DNA of 64,000 nucleotides from Oscillospiraceae bacterium (GTDB taxonomy: Bacteria; Bacillota; Clostridia; Oscillospirales; Oscillospiraceae). The stretch spans positions 62,001 through 126,000 of the forward strand of contig AP025583.1 of the NCBI GenBank assembly GCA_022846095.1, given 5' to 3'. The notes beneath the pieces are model-generated. The model saw only the letters and a program-made list of their open reading frames with translations, had not been told where the DNA came from and did not search any database. A program made the position numbers and the translations under genes. Shown in pieces: positions 5,445 to 13,772 of the stretch; position 1 is the stretch's first letter, and each line of letters begins with the position of its first letter.

Positions 5445-6674
5445 ATGAAAAAGAGACTGCTCGCGCTGACCCTGGCCCTGGCGATGGTCTTCGCCCTCGC
5501 CGCCTGCTCCGGCGGCGGGAACACCAGCACCCACGCGCCCGGCACCCAGGCCCCCGCGCCCGAGGGCCAGACCCCCGCCACCCAGCCCGCCGCCCCCGAG
5601 GGCAGCGGCATCGCCCTGGCCGACCTGAAGATCGGCTTCATCCACATCGGCGACGAGAGCGACAAGGGCTACACCTACAACATGGTCATGGGCACCAAGG
5701 AGATGCAGGCCAACCTGGGCATCGCCGACGACCAGCTGGTAGTGAAGTACAACACCGCCGAGAGCGACGAGTGCGCCGACGCTATCAACGCCTGCCTGGA
5801 CTCCGGCTGCCAGCTCATTATCGCCACCAGCTTCGGCTTCCAGGACTACGTCACCGAGGCCGCCAAGGACAACCCCGACGTGCAGTTCGTCCAGCTCACC
5901 GGCAACCAGGCCGCCTCCTCGGGCCTTGCCAACCTGCACAACGCCTTTGCCAGCATCTACGAGGGCCGCTACCTGGCCGGCGTGGTGGCCGGCATGAAGG
6001 CCAAGGAGATCGCCAACCCCAAGCTGGGCTACGTGGGCGCGTACCCCTACGCCGAGGTCATCAGCGGCTACACCGCCTTCTTTGAGGGCGCCAAAAGCGT
6101 GTACCCTGAGGTCACCATGGACGTGATCTACACCAACAGCTGGAACAGCCCCGACCTGGAGGGCAAGGCGGCCCAGGCCCTGATCGACCGGGGCTGCGGC
6201 GTGGTCAGCCAGCACTCCGACTCCACCGCCCCCTCCACCACCGCCGAGGCCAACAAGTGCTTCTCCGTGGGCTACAACGCCGACATGATCCAGGCCGCCC
6301 CCGGCGCCGCCCTGGTGTCCTCCCGCATCGATTGGGGCCCCTACTTCACCGAGGCCGTGCAGGCCATGATCGACGGCACCGCCATCCCCGTGGACTCCTG
6401 CAAGGGCTACGCCGACGGCGCGGTGGTGCTGACCGAGCTCAACGACGCCATCCTGGCCCCCGGCACCAAGGAGGTCCTGGAGAGCGCCGAGGCCAAGATT
6501 GCCGACGGCTCCATCGCGGTCTTCTGCGGCCCCATGCACGGCGTGGACCCCTTCACCGGCGACGAGCTCAACCTGGCTGGGGGCGAGAGCTTCCACGAGA
6601 GCGACGTGGCGGGCGGCAAGACCAGCGCCCCCTACTTCGGCTACGTCATCGACGGCGTGACCATCGTCGAGTAA
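5445..6674 (+). CDS. BMP family substrate-binding lipoprotein (nucleoside ABC importer)
   Basis: This 409-residue lipoprotein has a signal peptide with lipobox LAAC (Cys21), followed by a Thr/Pro/Ala-rich linker to about residue 50. The BMP/Med periplasmic-binding fold follows, with family hallmarks KIGFIHIGDESDKGYTYN and VGYNADMIQAAPGA. Such proteins deliver purine nucleosides or related ligands to YufOPQ-type transporters. It is the first gene of a four-gene import operon (binding protein, ATPase, two permeases). SD AAAGGAGG precedes the ATG. A strong hairpin after the stop would let it be made in excess over the transporter. Confidence 0.9.
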   Translation: MKKRLLALTLALAMVFALAACSGGGNTSTHAPGTQAPAPEGQTPATQPAAPEGSGIALADLKIGFIHIGDESDKGYTYNMVMGTKEMQANLGIADDQLVVKYNTAESDECADAINACLDSGCQLIIATSFGFQDYVTEAAKDNPDVQFVQLTGNQAASSGLANLHNAFASIYEGRYLAGVVAGMKAKEIANPKLGYVGAYPYAEVISGYTAFFEGAKSVYPEVTMDVIYTNSWNSPDLEGKAAQALIDRGCGVVSQHSDSTAPSTTAEANKCFSVGYNADMIQAAPGAALVSSRIDWGPYFTEAVQAMIDGTAIPVDSCKGYADGAVVLTELNDAILAPGTKEVLESAEAKIADGSIAVFCGPMHGVDPFTGDELNLAGGESFHESDVAGGKTSAPYFGYVIDGVTIVE

Positions 6675-6815: not shown

Positions 6816-8387
6816 TTGGAAAATACCTGCGCCATCCAGCTGAAGGAGCTGACCAAGACCTTCGGCGAGGTCGTGGCCAACGACAAGGTGTCCCTGGAGC
6901 TGCAGCGGGGGGAGATCCTCTCCCTGCTGGGGGAGAACGGCAGCGGCAAGACCACCCTGATGAACATGCTCTCCGGCATCTACTTCCCGGACAGCGGCGA
7001 GATCCGCGTCAACGGGAAGAGCGTCACCATCCGCTCCCCCAAGGACGCCTTCGACCTGGGCATCGGCATGATCCACCAGCACTTCATGCTGGTGGACGTG
7101 CTCACCGCGGCGGAGAACATCATCCTGGGCCTGGAGGGCCAGGGCAGGCTGGACCGCCGCCAGGTGGCGAAGGACATCCGCGCCATCAGCGGGAAGTACG
7201 GCTTCGACATTGACCCCAACCAGAAGATCTACGACATGTCGGTGTCCCAGAAGCAGACGGTGGAGATTGTCAAGGTGCTCTACCGGGGGGCCGACATCCT
7301 GATCCTGGACGAACCCACCGCCGTGCTCACCCCCCAGGAGACCGACAACCTCTTTGAGGTGCTGCGCAACATGAAGGCGGACGGCAAGGCCGTGGTCATC
7401 ATCACCCACAAGCTCAATGAGGTGATGGCCATCTCCGACAAGGTGGCCGTGCTGCGCAAGGGGAAGTACATCGGCACCATCGACACCGCCGGGACCAGCC
7501 CCCAGCAGCTCACCGAGATGATGGTGGGCCGGGCGGTGAGCCTGGACATCGACCGCCCCCTGGTGGAGAAGCGCAATCCCCGGCTGGAGGTGCAAAACCT
7601 CACCTGCGTCAGCGGCGAGGGCGTGGTGACCCTGGACAACGTGTCCTTCACCGCCCTGGGCGGCGAGATCCTGGGCATCGCCGGGGTGGCGGGCAGCGGC
7701 CAGAAGGAGCTGCTGGAGGCCATCGCGGGGCTGCAAAAGGTCCGGGAGGGGCACATTATTTACTACCCGCCCCACCCCGACGAGCCGGTGGCCGGGCAGC
7801 ATGTGAGCGTCAACCGCTCCGGCGAGGAGCTGGTGGGCAAGAACCCCATGCAGATCGCCAGGATCGGCGTGTCCCTGGCCTTCGTGCCCGAGGACCGGCT
7901 GGGCATGGGCCTGGTGGCGGGCATGGACATGGTGGACAACATGATGCTCAAGACCTACAAGAGCGGCAGGGGGCCGGCCGCCGACCGCAAGCCCCCCAGG
8001 GCGCTGGCGGAGCAGCTCATCGGGGAGCTGGAGATCGTCACCCCCGGCGTGTCCACGCCGGTGCGGCGGCTGTCCGGCGGCAACGTGCAGAAGGTGCTGG
8101 TGGGCCGGGAGATCGCCTCCAGCCCCACGGTGCTCATGACGGCCTACCCGGTGCGCGGGCTGGACATCAACTCCTCCTACACCATCTACCGCCTGCTCAA
8201 CGAGCAGAAGCAAAAGGGCGTGGCGGTGGTGCTGGTGGGCGAGGATCTGGACGTGCTGCTGGAGCTTTGCGACCGCATCGCGGTGCTGTGCGGCGGTAAG
8301 CTGTCCGGCATCGTGGACGGCAGGACCGCCACCAAAGAGGAAGTGGGCCTGCTGATGACCCAGAGCGGAAAGGGGGGTAAGGCGTGA
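6816..8387 (+). CDS. nucleoside-type ABC transporter ATP-binding protein
   Basis: This 523-residue protein has two fused ATPase domains, as in YufO and sugar-type ATPases. Domain 1 has Walker A GENGSGKTT (39-47), signature SVSQKQTVEI and Walker B ILILDEPTAVLTPQE. Domain 2 (from about 262) has the usual degenerate Walker A (GVAGSGQKE), signature LSGGNVQKV and a degenerate Walker B region (TVLMTAYPVRGLD). So only one competent site is expected, as in the family. The start is TTG 6816 with SD AGAGGTGAT. Its stop overlaps the GTG of the next gene by 4 bp, which indicates translational coupling. Confidence 0.92.
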   Translation: MENTCAIQLKELTKTFGEVVANDKVSLELQRGEILSLLGENGSGKTTLMNMLSGIYFPDSGEIRVNGKSVTIRSPKDAFDLGIGMIHQHFMLVDVLTAAENIILGLEGQGRLDRRQVAKDIRAISGKYGFDIDPNQKIYDMSVSQKQTVEIVKVLYRGADILILDEPTAVLTPQETDNLFEVLRNMKADGKAVVIITHKLNEVMAISDKVAVLRKGKYIGTIDTAGTSPQQLTEMMVGRAVSLDIDRPLVEKRNPRLEVQNLTCVSGEGVVTLDNVSFTALGGEILGIAGVAGSGQKELLEAIAGLQKVREGHIIYYPPHPDEPVAGQHVSVNRSGEELVGKNPMQIARIGVSLAFVPEDRLGMGLVAGMDMVDNMMLKTYKSGRGPAADRKPPRALAEQLIGELEIVTPGVSTPVRRLSGGNVQKVLVGREIASSPTVLMTAYPVRGLDINSSYTIYRLLNEQKQKGVAVVLVGEDLDVLLELCDRIAVLCGGKLSGIVDGRTATKEEVGLLMTQSGKGGKA

Positions 8388-9505
8388 GCAAAACCAAAAC
8401 CGCGGCGGCCGGACGTGAGCCGCTGGTCCGGCTGGTAAAACGGGACGACATTCCCCGGGGAAAGGCCTGGGCCATCCGGGCCCTGGCCGTGCTGCTGGCC
8501 CTGCTGACCGGCGCGCTTATCGTGCTGGCCCTGGGGCACAACCCCATCCTGGTGTACAAGGACATGGTGCTGGGCTCCCTGGGCAAGGCGCGGGGCATAC
8601 GGGAGACCGCCAAAAAGGCCATCCCCCTGCTGGGCGCCGCCCTGGCCATCGCCCCCGCCTTTAAGATGAAGTTCTGGAACATCGGCGCAGAGGGCCAGAT
8701 CCTGGCCGGGGGCCTGGGGGCCACCTACTTCGCCCTCTTCTGGGCCGACAAGCTGCCCCGCCCGGCGCTGCTGCTGCTGATGTGCGCGGCGGGCATCGTC
8801 TGCGGCGGGCTGTGGGGCCTGCTGCCCGCCGTGTTCAAGGCCAAGTGGGGCACCAACGAGACCCTGTTCACCCTGATGCTCAACTACATCGTGCTGGGCT
8901 TCGTCAAATACCTCCAGGCCGGGCCCTGGGGGCCCGACATCAACCCCGCCACCTCCTACCCGAAGATCCCCATGTTCACCGACGCGGCCCGCCTGCCCTC
9001 GGTCTTCGGGGTGCACATCGGCTGGATCTTCATCCTGCTGCTCACCGGGGCCATGTTCTGGTACCTGAAGTACTCCAAGCAGGGGTACGAGATCGCCGTG
9101 GTGGGGGAGAGCGTGCGCACCGCCCAGTACGCGGGCATGAGCGTGCCCAAGATCATCATGCGCACCATGTTCCTCTCGGGCGCCGTGTCCGGCTTCGTGG
9201 GCTTCCTCCAGGTCTCCGGCGCCAGCTACACCCTCACCGAGAACACCGCCGGGGGCATCGGCTTCACCGCCATCACCGTGGCGTGGCTGGCAAAATTGAA
9301 CCCCTTCGCCATGATCGTCATCGCCATCGTGCTGGCCGTGCTGGAGAAGGGCTCGGACACCATCCAGACCCTGTACCAGATCCCGGCCTCCGCGGCCGAG
9401 ATGCTCACCGGCATCATCCTCTTCTTCATGCTGGGGTGCGAATTCTTTATCAACTACAGGCTCATTTTCCGGGGAAAGGGGGCGCGCGGGCATGGACGTA
9501 ACTAA
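8384..9505 (+). CDS. nucleoside ABC transporter permease (YufP-like)
   Basis: This 373-residue BPD_transp_2 family permease has about ten hydrophobic segments. The family motif KFWNIGAEGQILAGGLGA lies near residues 90-107, and GTNETLFTLMLNYI follows near 154-167. It is the larger of the two YufP/YufQ-type inner-membrane subunits. The start is GTG 8384, overlapping the ATPase stop. Its end overlaps the next permease gene by 14 bp. Confidence 0.92.
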   Translation: MSKTKTAAAGREPLVRLVKRDDIPRGKAWAIRALAVLLALLTGALIVLALGHNPILVYKDMVLGSLGKARGIRETAKKAIPLLGAALAIAPAFKMKFWNIGAEGQILAGGLGATYFALFWADKLPRPALLLLMCAAGIVCGGLWGLLPAVFKAKWGTNETLFTLMLNYIVLGFVKYLQAGPWGPDINPATSYPKIPMFTDAARLPSVFGVHIGWIFILLLTGAMFWYLKYSKQGYEIAVVGESVRTAQYAGMSVPKIIMRTMFLSGAVSGFVGFLQVSGASYTLTENTAGGIGFTAITVAWLAKLNPFAMIVIAIVLAVLEKGSDTIQTLYQIPASAAEMLTGIILFFMLGCEFFINYRLIFRGKGARGHGRN

Positions 9506-10472
9506 TTTCCTGGTGGCCGCGGTGGCCGCGGGCACGCCGCTGCTCTTCGGCACGCTGGGCGAGATCGTCACCGAGAAGTCGGGCAACCTGAACCTGGGCG
9601 TGGAGGGCATGATGTTCATGGGCGGCGTGGCCGGCCTGGCCGGGGCCTACTACTACGAGCAGGCCGCGGGCGCCGCCGCCTCCGGCGGGATCGCCGCGCT
9701 GGTGGCCGTGCTGTGCGCGCTGCTGGCCGGCGGCCTGGGCGGGCTGGTGTTCAGCGTGCTCACCGTCTCCCTGCGGGTCAACCAGAACGTCACCGGCCTG
9801 GCCCTGACCATCTTCGGCACCGGCTTCGGCAACTTCTTCGGCGAGATTATGAACTCCTCCGCCGGCGGCCACGCCTCCGTGAGCGACGCCACCAAGGCCA
9901 TCTTCGCCGGGAACTCCACCATGGCCGGGGCGGGAAAGATCTTCCTGTCCTACAACTTCATGGTCTACCTGGGTATCGCGCTGGCCATCGTGCTGGCCTG
10001 GTTCCTGGGCCGCAGCCGCCGGGGCCTGCACCTGCGCGCCGTGGGCGAGAGCCCCGCCACCGCCGACGCCGCGGGCATCAACGTCACCCGCTACAAGTAC
10101 CTGGCCACCTGCCTGGGCGGCGGGATCTGCGGCCTGGGCGGCATGTACATCGTCATGGCCCAGTTCGGCGGCGTGTGGAACCACAACTGCATCTCCGGCA
10201 AGGGGTGGATCGCCGTGGCCCTGGTCATCTTCGCCACCTGGAGCCCCGCCAGGGCCCTTATCGGCTCCCTGGTCTTCGGCGCGCTGAGCGTGCTGCGGCT
10301 CTACGTCTCCACCGGCGCGGCCATGGGCACGGGCACCCGCCTGATCCCCATCTTCGACATCGTGCCCTATATCGCCACCGTGCTGGTGCTGATCTTCGTC
10401 AGCATCCGTCAACGGCGCGAAAACCAGCCGCCAGCGAGCCTTGGCTTGGCGTACTTTAGGGAAGAGCGGTAG
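9492..10472 (+). CDS. nucleoside ABC transporter permease (YufQ-like)
   Basis: This 326-residue second permease of the importer has about eight to nine hydrophobic segments. Family motifs include GTPLLFGTLGEIVTEKSGNL at the N-terminus and NLGVEGMMFMGG near 35-46. Ten residues from the C-terminus the protein becomes polar (RQRRENQPP). It is the last gene of the BMP operon; no clear terminator was seen before the next gene 60 bp downstream. Confidence 0.92.
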   Translation: MDVTNFLVAAVAAGTPLLFGTLGEIVTEKSGNLNLGVEGMMFMGGVAGLAGAYYYEQAAGAAASGGIAALVAVLCALLAGGLGGLVFSVLTVSLRVNQNVTGLALTIFGTGFGNFFGEIMNSSAGGHASVSDATKAIFAGNSTMAGAGKIFLSYNFMVYLGIALAIVLAWFLGRSRRGLHLRAVGESPATADAAGINVTRYKYLATCLGGGICGLGGMYIVMAQFGGVWNHNCISGKGWIAVALVIFATWSPARALIGSLVFGALSVLRLYVSTGAAMGTGTRLIPIFDIVPYIATVLVLIFVSIRQRRENQPPASLGLAYFREER

Positions 10473-11385: not shown

Positions 11386-11420
11386 AAAGGGGCGCCGGAC
11401 GGATGTCCGGCGCCCCTTTT
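11386..11420 (+). terminator. rho-independent terminator
   Basis: AAAGGGGCGCCGGAC 11386-11400, loop GGAT, GTCCGGCGCCCCTTT 11405-11419 and one more T. This is a 15-bp perfect stem directly before the BlaI promoter. Confidence 0.9.
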
Positions 11421-11432
11421 ATAAGTTGATGG

Positions 11433-11471
11433 TTGACAAACGTCTACCTGTGTGATAGCATCATGGTAGAC
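11433..11471 (+). promoter_or_regulatory. blaI-type promoter with embedded operator dyad
   Basis: TTGACA 11433-11438 and TAGCAT 11456-11461 are 17 bp apart. A perfect inverted repeat, GTCTACC 11442-11448 and GGTAGAC 11465-11471, overlaps the spacer and the -10 region. This is the position expected for an autoregulating BlaI/MecI-type repressor. Confidence 0.7.
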
Positions 11472-11497
11472 AGATGACTACCAAGGAGGCGCGACCT

Positions 11498-11887
11498 ATG
11501 GATCGGCACATTGGACTCTCACACGCGGAGTGGCGGGTGATGGAGGCGCTTTGGCAAAGCGCCCCCCGCACCATCGCCCAGCTCACGGCGGCGCTGGAGG
11601 AGGAGACCGGCTGGGGCAGGCACACCGTGATCTCCTTCCTCAACCGCATGGAGAAGAAGGGGGCGGTGACCTACCGGGAGGAGGGCCGCGCCAGGGCCTA
11701 CAGCCCCGCCTACCCCAGGGAGGAGGCCACGCTGGAGGAGACGGAGCGCTTTTTGGGCCGGGTGTTCGGCGGGCGGGTGGGGCTGCTGGTGAGCTCCATG
11801 GTGGACAGCCGGGCCCTGTCCGAGGCGGAGATCGACGAGCTGCTGGAGATCCTCCAAAAGGCGAAGGGGGGCGGCGGGGATGCGTGA
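11498..11887 (+). CDS. BlaI/MecI-family transcriptional repressor
   Basis: This 129-residue winged-helix regulator has the family N-terminus (LSHAEWRVMEALWQ), recognition region HTVISFLNRMEKKGAVTY near residues 41-58 and a C-terminal dimerisation/cleavage segment rich in Glu and Leu. BlaI-type repressors bind dyads in their own promoter and are inactivated by a membrane M56 peptidase partner. Here the partner overlaps by 8 bp. I chose ATG 11498 because AAGGAGG sits 9 nt upstream; an in-frame ATG at 11474 lies inside the operator region. The context resembles blaI-blaR1 but has no beta-lactamase or PBP gene. Confidence 0.9.
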   Translation: MDRHIGLSHAEWRVMEALWQSAPRTIAQLTAALEEETGWGRHTVISFLNRMEKKGAVTYREEGRARAYSPAYPREEATLEETERFLGRVFGGRVGLLVSSMVDSRALSEAEIDELLEILQKAKGGGGDA

Positions 11888-13712
11888 GATCGCCTTTTCC
11901 TCCAGCGTGCTGATTCTGGCGGTGCTGTGCGTCCGGGCCCTGGCCGGGGGGCGCGTCCCCATGCGCCTGCGCTACGCCCTGTGGCTGCCGGTGCTGGTGC
12001 GGCTGCTGCTGCCCTTCAGCCTGCCGGGAAGCCCCCTGAGCGTGCTCAACGCCGTGGAGCCCCCGGCGGCGGAGGTGCGGATCTCCCTGCCCGGGGCGGG
12101 GTGGACGCCGGAGGATCTGCCCGCGGGGCAGGGGACGGCGGAGCCGGGCGGCGCGGCCCTGGCGGCGGGGGAGGCGGAGCCGGCGGCTTCCACAGAACGC
12201 GCCGTGCCGCTGTGGACGGCGCTGGGCTGGGTGTGGCTGGCGGGGAGCTGCCTGACCGGGGCGGGCCTGCTGTGGGCCAACCTGCGGCTGCTCCGCCGCC
12301 TGAGAGGGGCGGAGCCCGTGCACGGGCACCAGGACTGCCCCGTGCCCGTGCTGCTGGCCGAGGGGCTGCCCTCCCCCTGTCTGGCCGGGGTGTTCCGTCC
12401 AAGGATCTATTTAACCCAAAAATCGACGGAAAGCGAAACTACTTTACGGCATGTGCTGACCCATGAGCTCTGCCACCTGCGCCACGGGGACTGCTGGTGG
12501 GCGCTGCTGCGGCTGCTCTGCCTGGCGCTGTGGTGGTGGAATCCGCTGGTGTGGCTGGCGGCCGCACTGTCCCGCCGGGACGGGGAGCTGGCCTGCGACG
12601 AGGCGGCGGTGGCTGCGCTGGGGGAGGGGGAGCGCATCCCCTACGGCGAGACCCTGCTGGCCCTGGTGGGCCGCCGGAACGGGCCTGGGACGCTGCTGGG
12701 CGCCACCACCGCCATGGCGGCGGGGAAGGGGGCCATGCGGGAGCGGATCGCCCGGCTGGCGGGGCGGAAAAAGGCGTGGCTGCCCCTGTGCGCGGCGGCG
12801 GTGCTCCTGGTGGGGCTGGCCGCGGTGTGCACCTTTACCGGGCCGGGGGCGGAGCCCCCCTTCCCTGCGGTACAGGAGCCGCGGTCGGGTCCCACGCCCC
12901 CGCCCGCGCCCACGCCCCAGGTGTTACATATCACCCAGCGCAGCATCTCCTTCCTGGTGCTGGGCCAGGTGGAGGAGGAAATGGATCCGGACATGCTGAT
13001 GGCGGTCTGCTTCCGCTACGACGAGGAGGGGACGCAGCTCAACGCAATCAGCATCCCCAGGGACACCAGGGTGGACGTGCCCTGGGACATCCAGCGCATC
13101 AACACCGTCTACGGCGCCGCCGGCGGGGGCGAGGCGGGGGCCGAGGCCCTGCGCCAGGCCGTCTCCGGGCTGCTGGGCACCGAGCTGGAGTACACCGTTG
13201 TGCTGGATCAGGCGGCGGTGGGGGAGCTGGTGGACGCCATGGGCGGCGTGGAGTTCGACGTGACCGTCCAGATGGACTACGACGATCCCGACCAGGATCT
13301 GCACATCCACCTGGAGCGGGGGCCCCAAATCCTGGGCGGGGCGGAGGCCATGGCGCTGCTGCGCTTCCGCAAGAACAACGACGGCACCGGCTACACCTAC
13401 GGGGACGCGGGGCGCACGGAGACGCAGCGGGAATTTCTGCGCGAGGCGGCGGAACAGGCCATGAGAATGAAGGATTTTGACAGGCTCCAGGATGTTGCCC
13501 ATATTTTAAAGGCGCACGTGCAGACCGACCTGGACTTCGGAGTTCTGGAACTGGCGATGATAGAGGGCATCTCCAAGGGGATCGCGTACAACCTGTTCCC
13601 CATGCCCGGGGACTACGGCGCCTCCGGCTGGAGCGAGACCTACTCCAACTACCAGTCCTACGTGGAGGCGGACCGGGAGGCCCTGGACGAGCTGGTAAAG
13701 ACCTATTTCTGA
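11880..13712 (+). CDS. BlaR1-like M56 metallopeptidase fused to an LCP (LytR-CpsA-Psr) domain
   Basis: This 610-residue membrane protein has an M56 module at about 1-300. It has hydrophobic segments near 5-22, 29-48, 108-130 and 203-230, zinc motif HELCH (195-199) and the downstream GELACDEAAV element. A fifth membrane segment (about 295-316) leads to a Pro-rich linker (PTPPPAPTPQ) and an extracytoplasmic LCP domain at about 357-545. The LCP landmarks are intact: SIPRDTRVDV (Arg394, Asp395), RINTVYGAAGG, MGGVEFDV, LLRFRKNNDG (about 494-503) and GRTETQREFL. BlaR1 normally carries a penicillin-binding sensor at this place. I infer that an LCP domain, which normally transfers glycopolymers to peptidoglycan from polyprenyl carriers, here senses a lipid-linked envelope intermediate and triggers cleavage of the upstream repressor. 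It could also be a bifunctional enzyme. Confidence 0.85.
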   Translation: MREIAFSSSVLILAVLCVRALAGGRVPMRLRYALWLPVLVRLLLPFSLPGSPLSVLNAVEPPAAEVRISLPGAGWTPEDLPAGQGTAEPGGAALAAGEAEPAASTERAVPLWTALGWVWLAGSCLTGAGLLWANLRLLRRLRGAEPVHGHQDCPVPVLLAEGLPSPCLAGVFRPRIYLTQKSTESETTLRHVLTHELCHLRHGDCWWALLRLLCLALWWWNPLVWLAAALSRRDGELACDEAAVAALGEGERIPYGETLLALVGRRNGPGTLLGATTAMAAGKGAMRERIARLAGRKKAWLPLCAAAVLLVGLAAVCTFTGPGAEPPFPAVQEPRSGPTPPPAPTPQVLHITQRSISFLVLGQVEEEMDPDMLMAVCFRYDEEGTQLNAISIPRDTRVDVPWDIQRINTVYGAAGGGEAGAEALRQAVSGLLGTELEYTVVLDQAAVGELVDAMGGVEFDVTVQMDYDDPDQDLHIHLERGPQILGGAEAMALLRFRKNNDGTGYTYGDAGRTETQREFLREAAEQAMRMKDFDRLQDVAHILKAHVQTDLDFGVLELAMIEGISKGIAYNLFPMPGDYGASGWSETYSNYQSYVEADREALDELVKTYF

Positions 13713-13718
13713 TAAAAA

Positions 13719-13759
13719 ACGTGTATGGGGGCGGGCCTTTGGCCCGCCCCCATACACGT
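13719..13759. terminator. long hairpin after the M56-LCP gene
   Basis: A 19-bp perfect stem (13719-13737 with 13741-13759, loop TTT) begins 6 nt after the stop codon. There is no T-run on the plus strand, so it may be a processing or stability element rather than a classical terminator. Confidence 0.65.
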
Positions 13760-13772
13760 CCGCATACGGCAA

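Follow-up and report, generated by a model that had tools for sequence, protein, structure and literature searches.

The window, a 64,000-nucleotide stretch of the Oscillospiraceae bacterium contig AP025583.1 (positions 62,001 to 126,000; all positions below count from its first letter), carries a two-gene operon in which a gene for a BlaI-family repressor is followed by a gene for a fusion of an M56 peptidase with an LCP domain. BlaR1 and MecR1 are drug sensors with a penicillin-binding ectodomain, and the LCP domain of characterised enzymes holds undecaprenyl-pyrophosphate-linked polymers. What is new is that an LCP domain stands at the penicillin sensor's place in a probable BlaI/BlaR1-type switch, and that candidate operator dyads at its promoter recur in a second species. 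On balance we favour reading the pair as a self-regulating proteolytic switch of the BlaI-BlaR1 type, with a receptor taken from an LCP glycopolymer transferase and with a ligand that is probably a polyprenyl-pyrophosphate-linked wall precursor. The switch itself is likely. Given the switch, the sensing of lipid-linked precursors has somewhat better than even chances, and is made plausible by the kept arginines, the first catalytic aspartate lost here and the long branches of the fused LCP domains.

A repressor gene overlapping an M56-LCP fusion gene

The fusion is encoded in a single open reading frame (ORF) that begins with an ATG at 11880, ahead of the TGA stop of the repressor frame at 11885-11887. 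The ORFs and the sequence thus bear out the 610-residue frame and the 8-bp overlap with a BlaI-type repressor gene described in the first-pass annotation, which had been made from the letters alone. A Pfam scan assigned the repressor to Penicillinase_R (PF03965; 3.6e-29, 101.9 bits against a cut-off of 22.6), and it matched the MecI structure at 2.4e-11. In the fusion, Pfam detected Peptidase_M56 (PF05569) over residues 4-291 (3e-42, 145.3 bits, cut-off 31) and LytR_cpsA_psr (PF03816) over residues 377-527 (4.8e-24, 85.7 bits, cut-off 24.6), and the LCP family TIGR00350 of NCBIfam scored 80.7 bits against a cut-off of 62.3. The earlier claim of an M56 module and an LCP domain in one protein therefore stands, with both far above the Pfam cut-offs and both matched by fold; the profile search of the C-terminal half, whose failure was to have counted against the fusion, found LCP above the cut-offs of both databases. 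The HELCH zinc motif (195-199), GELACDE (235-241), SIPRDT, R495/R497 and GRTETQ are all present. No transpeptidase family, the kind that a penicillin-binding sensor domain would show, matched the fusion at E <= 0.1 in Pfam.

Two separate genes joined by a frameshift or by an assembly or annotation error could have produced such a protein. We found nothing in support of this explanation, which is practically excluded by the genome being one contig of 4.31 Mb and by the recurrence of an equal fusion in five further species. In all, M56-LCP fusions were found in six species of three genera: the window's and those labelled G073 (locus L110), G295, G1515, G1516 (locus L111) and G1520.

Protease module and presumed cleavage sites

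The full-length model of the fusion (mean predicted local distance difference test score, pLDDT, 80.4; predicted template modelling score, pTM, 0.56; 38 alignment rows) matched 39 PDB chains at E <= 0.001, of which 33 were LCP and six were BlaR1 chains, the best BlaR1 fold match having an E-value of 5.6e-06. The model predicts four membrane helices, with sidedness deduced, and the last of them, residues 301-319, runs directly into the linker. The five membrane segments counted earlier did not hold up, as our reading of the helix list gives four membrane helices plus hydrophobic helices within the M56 domain. The M56 protease would face the cytoplasm, and the LCP domain is predicted to be extracytoplasmic. 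By sequence the likeness to BlaR1 is more distant: the NCBIfam family blaR1_generic reached 81.8 against a cut-off of 400 and only over residues 160-298, and the M56 part alone, used as a query, found BlaR1 only at 0.34. A sequence profile built from three fusions found BlaR1 at 3.9e-07 and TagV at 1.3e-24.

The cryo-EM paper on BlaR1 gives, in the part available to us, the catalytic and helper residues His201, Glu202, His205, Asp210, Glu242, Asp246, Tyr261 and Arg294, autocleavage between Ser283 and Phe284, and the cut of BlaI between Asn101 and Phe102 (PMC9834060); the HEXXH pattern served to fill in some of these residue numbers, among them Glu202 and His205 of the zinc motif. All eight residues have counterparts in the window (H195, E196, H199, D204, E236, D240, Y255 and R289). 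In the 38-row alignment, 37 rows of which hold M56, every one of these counterparts is either invariant or conserved to 90% or more. The window protein thus contains the HEXXH...E zinc site and the helper D, D, Y and R of BlaR1-type M56 proteases, as far as the available part of that source defines them. The pairing is our own reading, with a constant offset for seven residues and a one-residue indel required for Arg294.

The region aligned with the BlaR1 autocleavage place reads TTAM, and Met279 and Thr277 are both 90% conserved in the same alignment. Of 14 aligned M56 proteins, 13 have F, M or L in the Met279 column and one is gapped there. Met279 is our candidate for the autocleavage P1' residue from these alignments, and an ungapped reading of another alignment puts BlaR1 position 284 on Ala280, so the exact residue is uncertain by one. 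In the repressor, the position aligned with the cut site of Staphylococcus aureus BlaI is Ser100-Met101, and Met101 supplies the bulky hydrophobic P1' residue typical of the BlaI/MecI family. The same site is S-M in G073 and T-L in G295 and G1516, and in the ten other BlaI proteins of the window's genome A, S or T precedes L or F. The kept residues and the hydrophobic presumed cleavage sites fit a working protease and repressor pair. The BlaR1-like circuit with LCP at the sensor's place, as the first-pass annotation had proposed it, is well supported: the repressor, the candidate operators over the promoter, the residues of the protease, the topology as predicted and the candidate cleavage sites are all in agreement with it.

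The LCP domain as receptor or transferase

The LCP half modelled alone (mean pLDDT 73.5, pTM 0.71, 4 alignment rows) superposed on S. aureus LcpA (6uex) with Z 21.8 and a root-mean-square deviation of 3.0 over 233 residues, and a fold search returned LCP structures in all of its top 26 rows, the following row having Z 4.2. According to the available portions of two papers, LCP enzymes have two Mg-binding aspartates (D234 and D246 of Cps2A) and four arginines; the TagT changes R118A, R219A and R227A abolish transfer, and an R267A mutant LCP still binds lipid (PMC7831098, PMC11337229). The window protein keeps D371, the second Mg-binding aspartate, as well as R394, R495, R497, D509, R512 and Q516, and among these R394, R495, R497 and R512 are the four conserved pyrophosphate arginines. 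The first Mg-binding aspartate is Val364, so only one of the two is present. The earlier statement that the catalytic motifs are intact is therefore right for the arginines and had overlooked the missing aspartate.

Across the family, eight LCP active-site columns are invariant throughout the 19 stand-alone LCPs compared, and seven of them are invariant across all six fusions (three short partial LCP matches were excluded from one LCP alignment). The exception is the first aspartate, which is V in the window, S in G073, D in G295, G1515 and G1520, and E in G1516. Judged from this column, its loss is confined to two short fusions, those of the window and G073. The Glu of G1516 may be functional, since TagV likewise has Glu at one of the Asp positions, according to the portion of PMC11337229 available.

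The LCP domain could instead be a working glycopolymer-to-peptidoglycan transferase, whose amount the BlaI/M56 pair sets or which it frees by autocleavage, and we hold this to be unlikely. Four arginines and the second aspartate are kept as in an enzyme, G295, G1515 and G1520 keep all LCP residues checked, and the repressor, whose exact operator pattern lies solely at its own promoter (see below), has no known output besides the LCP domain. Against this, Val364 replaces the aspartate whose change in Wzg/Cps2A, D234A, cut activity significantly (Kawai 2011, as cited in the available part of PMC11337229), and the genome already encodes two ordinary LCP proteins that carry the first aspartate. 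The branches of the fused LCP domains also exceed in length those of the stand-alone enzymes near them. In an LCP tree of 27 rows the fusions group with ten stand-alone rows (nine distinct) of one subfamily (99/93), with branches of 2.05, 1.96 and 1.15 and, in the long type, a stem of 1.36; the branches of the nine stand-alone LCPs measure 0.12-0.7. As to a single origin of the fusion, there were two label changes in both trees (with four and with six fusions); of 200 bootstrap trees, 47% united all fusions when four were included and 8% did so when six were. The proteolytically gated transferase, the alternative given in the first-pass annotation, is less likely for the window member because the first Mg-binding aspartate is missing, and may hold for G295, G1515 and G1520.

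Several points weigh against a receptor that has lost catalysis. Three fusions keep the first aspartate and G1516 has Glu, so the loss is not general; glutamates 365-367 directly after Val364 might substitute for it; and the loop around Val364 aligns poorly, with one alignment moving D371 by one place relative to three others. The full-length model, with a loop pLDDT mostly below 50, gave no readable docking of its extracellular loop onto the pocket of the LCP domain.

The LCP domain might also be a mere anchor or relic, in which case the switch would sense membrane state, ectodomain proteolysis or a partner protein. The M56 proteins of this genome bear varied C-termini, so the module tolerates varied ends, and the fused LCP is fast-evolving. 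Retention of the LCP profile and the four arginines in all six fusions and three genera argues against this explanation, and we consider it quite improbable.

Promoter dyads and the reach of the repressor

Both candidate operators are 18-bp dyads and together cover the promoter, one at the -35 box and one in the region just after the -10 box. We derived the operator pattern GGTWGACANNYGWCTACC from these two dyads, and its exact matches in the 4.3-Mb genome are the two dyads only. The strongest support for their being operators, as far as sequence comparison goes, is their conservation in a second species: in G073, whose fusion is 45% identical to that of the window, the counterparts of operator 1 (L110, 5534-5551, 1 mismatch) and operator 2 (5578-5595, 2 mismatches) precede the BlaI gene, and these two places, counted on both strands, give 4 matches, a number that 0 of 200 shuffles of the locus reached. 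The gap between the operators is 16 bp in the window (11431-11482) and 26 bp in L110 (5534-5595), a 10-bp change of about one helical turn.

Other results count against these dyads as operators. The window itself supplied the pattern, which builds in part of its uniqueness; when reversed, the pattern matches the genome more often (124 and 116 times) than it does as derived (17 and 22); and when up to 3 mismatches are allowed, 5 of 100 window shuffles reach the 4 matches observed. Given these reversed-pattern and shuffle controls, weak operator matches carry no meaning. The best dyad of the window, operator 2, is modest when taken alone (33 of 500 promoter shuffles score as well). In G1516 (L111) the pattern finds a single place, with 3 mismatches, and 58 of 200 shuffles do as well, so the operator of that species differs or is absent.

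BlaI might also act, by way of weaker operators, on genes for resistance or wall polymers outside its own operon, much as BlaI and MecI control blaZ and mecA besides their own genes (PMC9834060, in the part available). A whole-genome search to 2 mismatches found no other place matching GGTWGACANNYGWCTACC at 0 or 1 mismatch, which leaves a wider regulon unlikely. Three places at 2 mismatches lie within a gene, at an apparent terminator hairpin and before a seemingly unrelated gene, and were rejected as regulon members because, on our reading, they look like chance. Since the exact pattern occurs solely at its own promoter, the direct output of the switch is perhaps only more of itself.

Occurrence and genomic setting

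The M56-LCP fusion is rare. We found it in 3 of 400 genomes of a family sample, and in wider samples in the window's own genome only, among 394 genomes of the order, 391 of the class and 398 of the phylum; these surveys scored the three best candidates per genome under E-value limits between 1e-55 and 1e-85, so their counts are lower bounds. Within the genus of G295, where all candidates were scored, 4 of 25 genomes have it, and the genera of the window and of G073 are represented by one species each in the collection. A collection of 84,980 species held at least two fusions among its best 80 loci. The open frames of the fusions are 639-646, 824 and 1237-1276 amino acids (aa) long.

The co-occurrence survey called for by the first-pass annotation found BlaI in the gene cluster of all six fusions, directly upstream in five. 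In G1520 (L223:2346-8184) we observed a BlaI gene, next an M56 gene (1146-aa frame) and last the M56-LCP gene (824-aa frame), an arrangement of two transducers with one repressor. ATP-binding cassette (ABC) transporter genes, alike from their sequence, lie upstream of the BlaI operon both in the window (6816-10472) and in L110 (1659-5300), and the window set comprises one ATPase and two BPD_transp_2 permeases. No beta-lactamase or penicillin-binding protein was among the immediate neighbours examined. The search for viral copies yielded no viral locus with a full M56-LCP protein; one IMG/VR viral contig has a stand-alone LCP gene (L202:238-975), as host flank or carried gene. We found no description of the fusion in the open-licence literature searched, and the terms M56, BlaR and peptidase are absent from the available part of Hubscher 2008 (PMC2632651).

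The features of the locus are collected in Table 1. The hairpin ahead of the promoter was not among the results of the terminator scan. The hairpin that follows the fusion gene is the terminator of a convergent deaminase gene, perhaps shared with the operon.

Table 1. Features of the BlaI/M56-LCP locus, in window coordinates
Feature	Position	Strand	Evidence
Hairpin with T-rich tail, its stem perfectly paired over 12 bp or more; likely terminator of a DUF1963 gene	11389..11422	+	Sequence and dyad listing
Candidate operator 1, imperfect dyad GGTTGACAAACGTCTACC, includes the -35 box	11431..11448	+	Dyad listing, pattern search
Promoter: -35 TTGACA at 11433-11438, 17-bp spacer, -10 TAGCAT at 11456-11461, TG ahead of the -10	11433..11461	+	
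Candidate operator 2, dyad GGTAGACAGATGACTACC, just past the -10	11465..11482	+	Dyad listing, pattern search
BlaI-family repressor gene, 129 aa	11498..11887	+	Pfam PF03965, MecI/BlaI alignments, family alignment
M56-LCP fusion gene, 610 aa	11880..13712	+	ORF, Pfam, full-length model, fold matches
M56 (BlaR1-type) membrane metalloprotease module, residues 4-291	11889..12752	+	PF05569, conserved columns, alignment
Pro-rich linker, residues 320-352	12837..12935	+	Low pLDDT at 330-336 and 342-352 of the model
LCP domain, residues 353-610, predicted extracytoplasmic	12936..13709	+	PF03816, fold match, alignment
Strong hairpin, five bases past the fusion stop	13718..13760	.	Scored T-run on the minus strand

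Other BlaI-M56 pairs of the genome

The window's genome contains 12 M56 places, one with an internal stop, 13 Penicillinase_R places, 11 of them strong, and three LCP places. Ten other M56 proteins were scanned for domains, leaving out the twelfth place with its internal stop: one carries DUF5780, one carries an M23 peptidase and the rest have no further family above the cut-off, while an LCP or penicillin-binding domain was found in none of the ten. TTGACA lies upstream of all 11 BlaI genes, and at six of these promoters the best dyad in its vicinity is distinct from the shuffled background (at most 40 of 500 shuffles as good), with half-sites that differ. The pattern GGTWGACANNYGWCTACC was not found within 3 mismatches at the other BlaI-M56 pairs.

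About eleven BlaI-M56 pairs (L043-L051) differ in their C-terminal parts and are perhaps separate proteolytic sensor pairs. One locus (L045:1166-4417) has an M56-M23 peptidase fusion behind a BlaI gene, a second wall-related domain at the sensor place, and another (L044:1175-6724) has two tandem M56 proteins behind a single BlaI gene. The M56 gene with an internal TAA (G000:C1:1483077-1483901) adjoins a BlaI gene and is probably decaying. We offer only tentatively the broader reading that an LCP enzyme domain, its metal aspartate lost and its arginines kept, has turned into a receptor reporting polyprenyl-pyrophosphate precursor load to BlaI, within one of about eleven possibly insulated BlaI-M56 pairs that differ in their C-terminal sensor parts, and we lowered our confidence in it slightly because the dyads are clear at only six of the 11 promoters.

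How the switch may work

We infer repression, cleavage, topology, ligand and signal direction as follows. BlaI dimers on the two promoter dyads would repress the two-gene operon. The fusion is predicted to cross the membrane four times, with the zinc protease in the cytoplasm and the LCP-derived domain outside, where its ligand would most likely be a precursor of a wall polymer, linked to undecaprenyl pyrophosphate, or else this pyrophosphate lipid alone. With its first Mg-binding aspartate lost, the LCP domain of the window would act as a receptor rather than as a transferase. The signal of the bound ligand may be relayed through the extracellular loop and the helices, as in BlaR1, and by analogy the protease would cut BlaI between Ser100 and Met101, which would derepress the operon. 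If it signals, the system would be a direct readout of lipid-linked wall precursors, and would show that this bacterial family uses the BlaR1 chassis as a modular platform for sensing.

Relation to known systems

The window system resembles BlaI/BlaR1 and MecI/MecR1 of staphylococci and Bacillus licheniformis in the Pfam family of the repressor, the M56 catalytic residues and the dyads over the promoter. Its predicted four membrane helices and predicted outer C-terminal domain would correspond to those of BlaR1 and MecR1, and it shares with BlaI/BlaR1 a bulky hydrophobic residue at each presumed cleavage site. Unlike in BlaR1 and MecR1, the C-terminal domain is LCP and not penicillin-binding, and the exact operator pattern lies only at the system's own promoter. 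The system probably works like BlaI/BlaR1, yet it is not a beta-lactam sensor of the BlaR1/MecR1 family, as the penicillin-binding domain is absent. The BlaR1 homologue of Mycobacterium tuberculosis is also an M56 protein without the usual sensor, which is missing there (PMC9834060, in the part available) and replaced here.

With the LCP transferases TagT/U/V, S. aureus LcpA and Cps2A the fusion has in common the fold, the pyrophosphate-binding arginines and the second Mg-binding aspartate; it differs from them in being fused behind M56, in having Val for the first Mg-binding aspartate and in lying within a repressor operon. The Eubacterium siraeum structure 4obm (EUBSIR_01389; fold match Z 20.2) likewise combines an LCP fold with an altered active site, and we know of no M56 link for it. 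Its four arginines are replaced, according to the accessible part of PMC11337229, and those of the window fusion are kept. The other M56 proteins of the genome (M56-M23, M56-DUF5780 and those with unassigned C-termini) likewise have BlaI upstream and TTGACA before BlaI, and they differ from the window fusion in their C-terminal parts.

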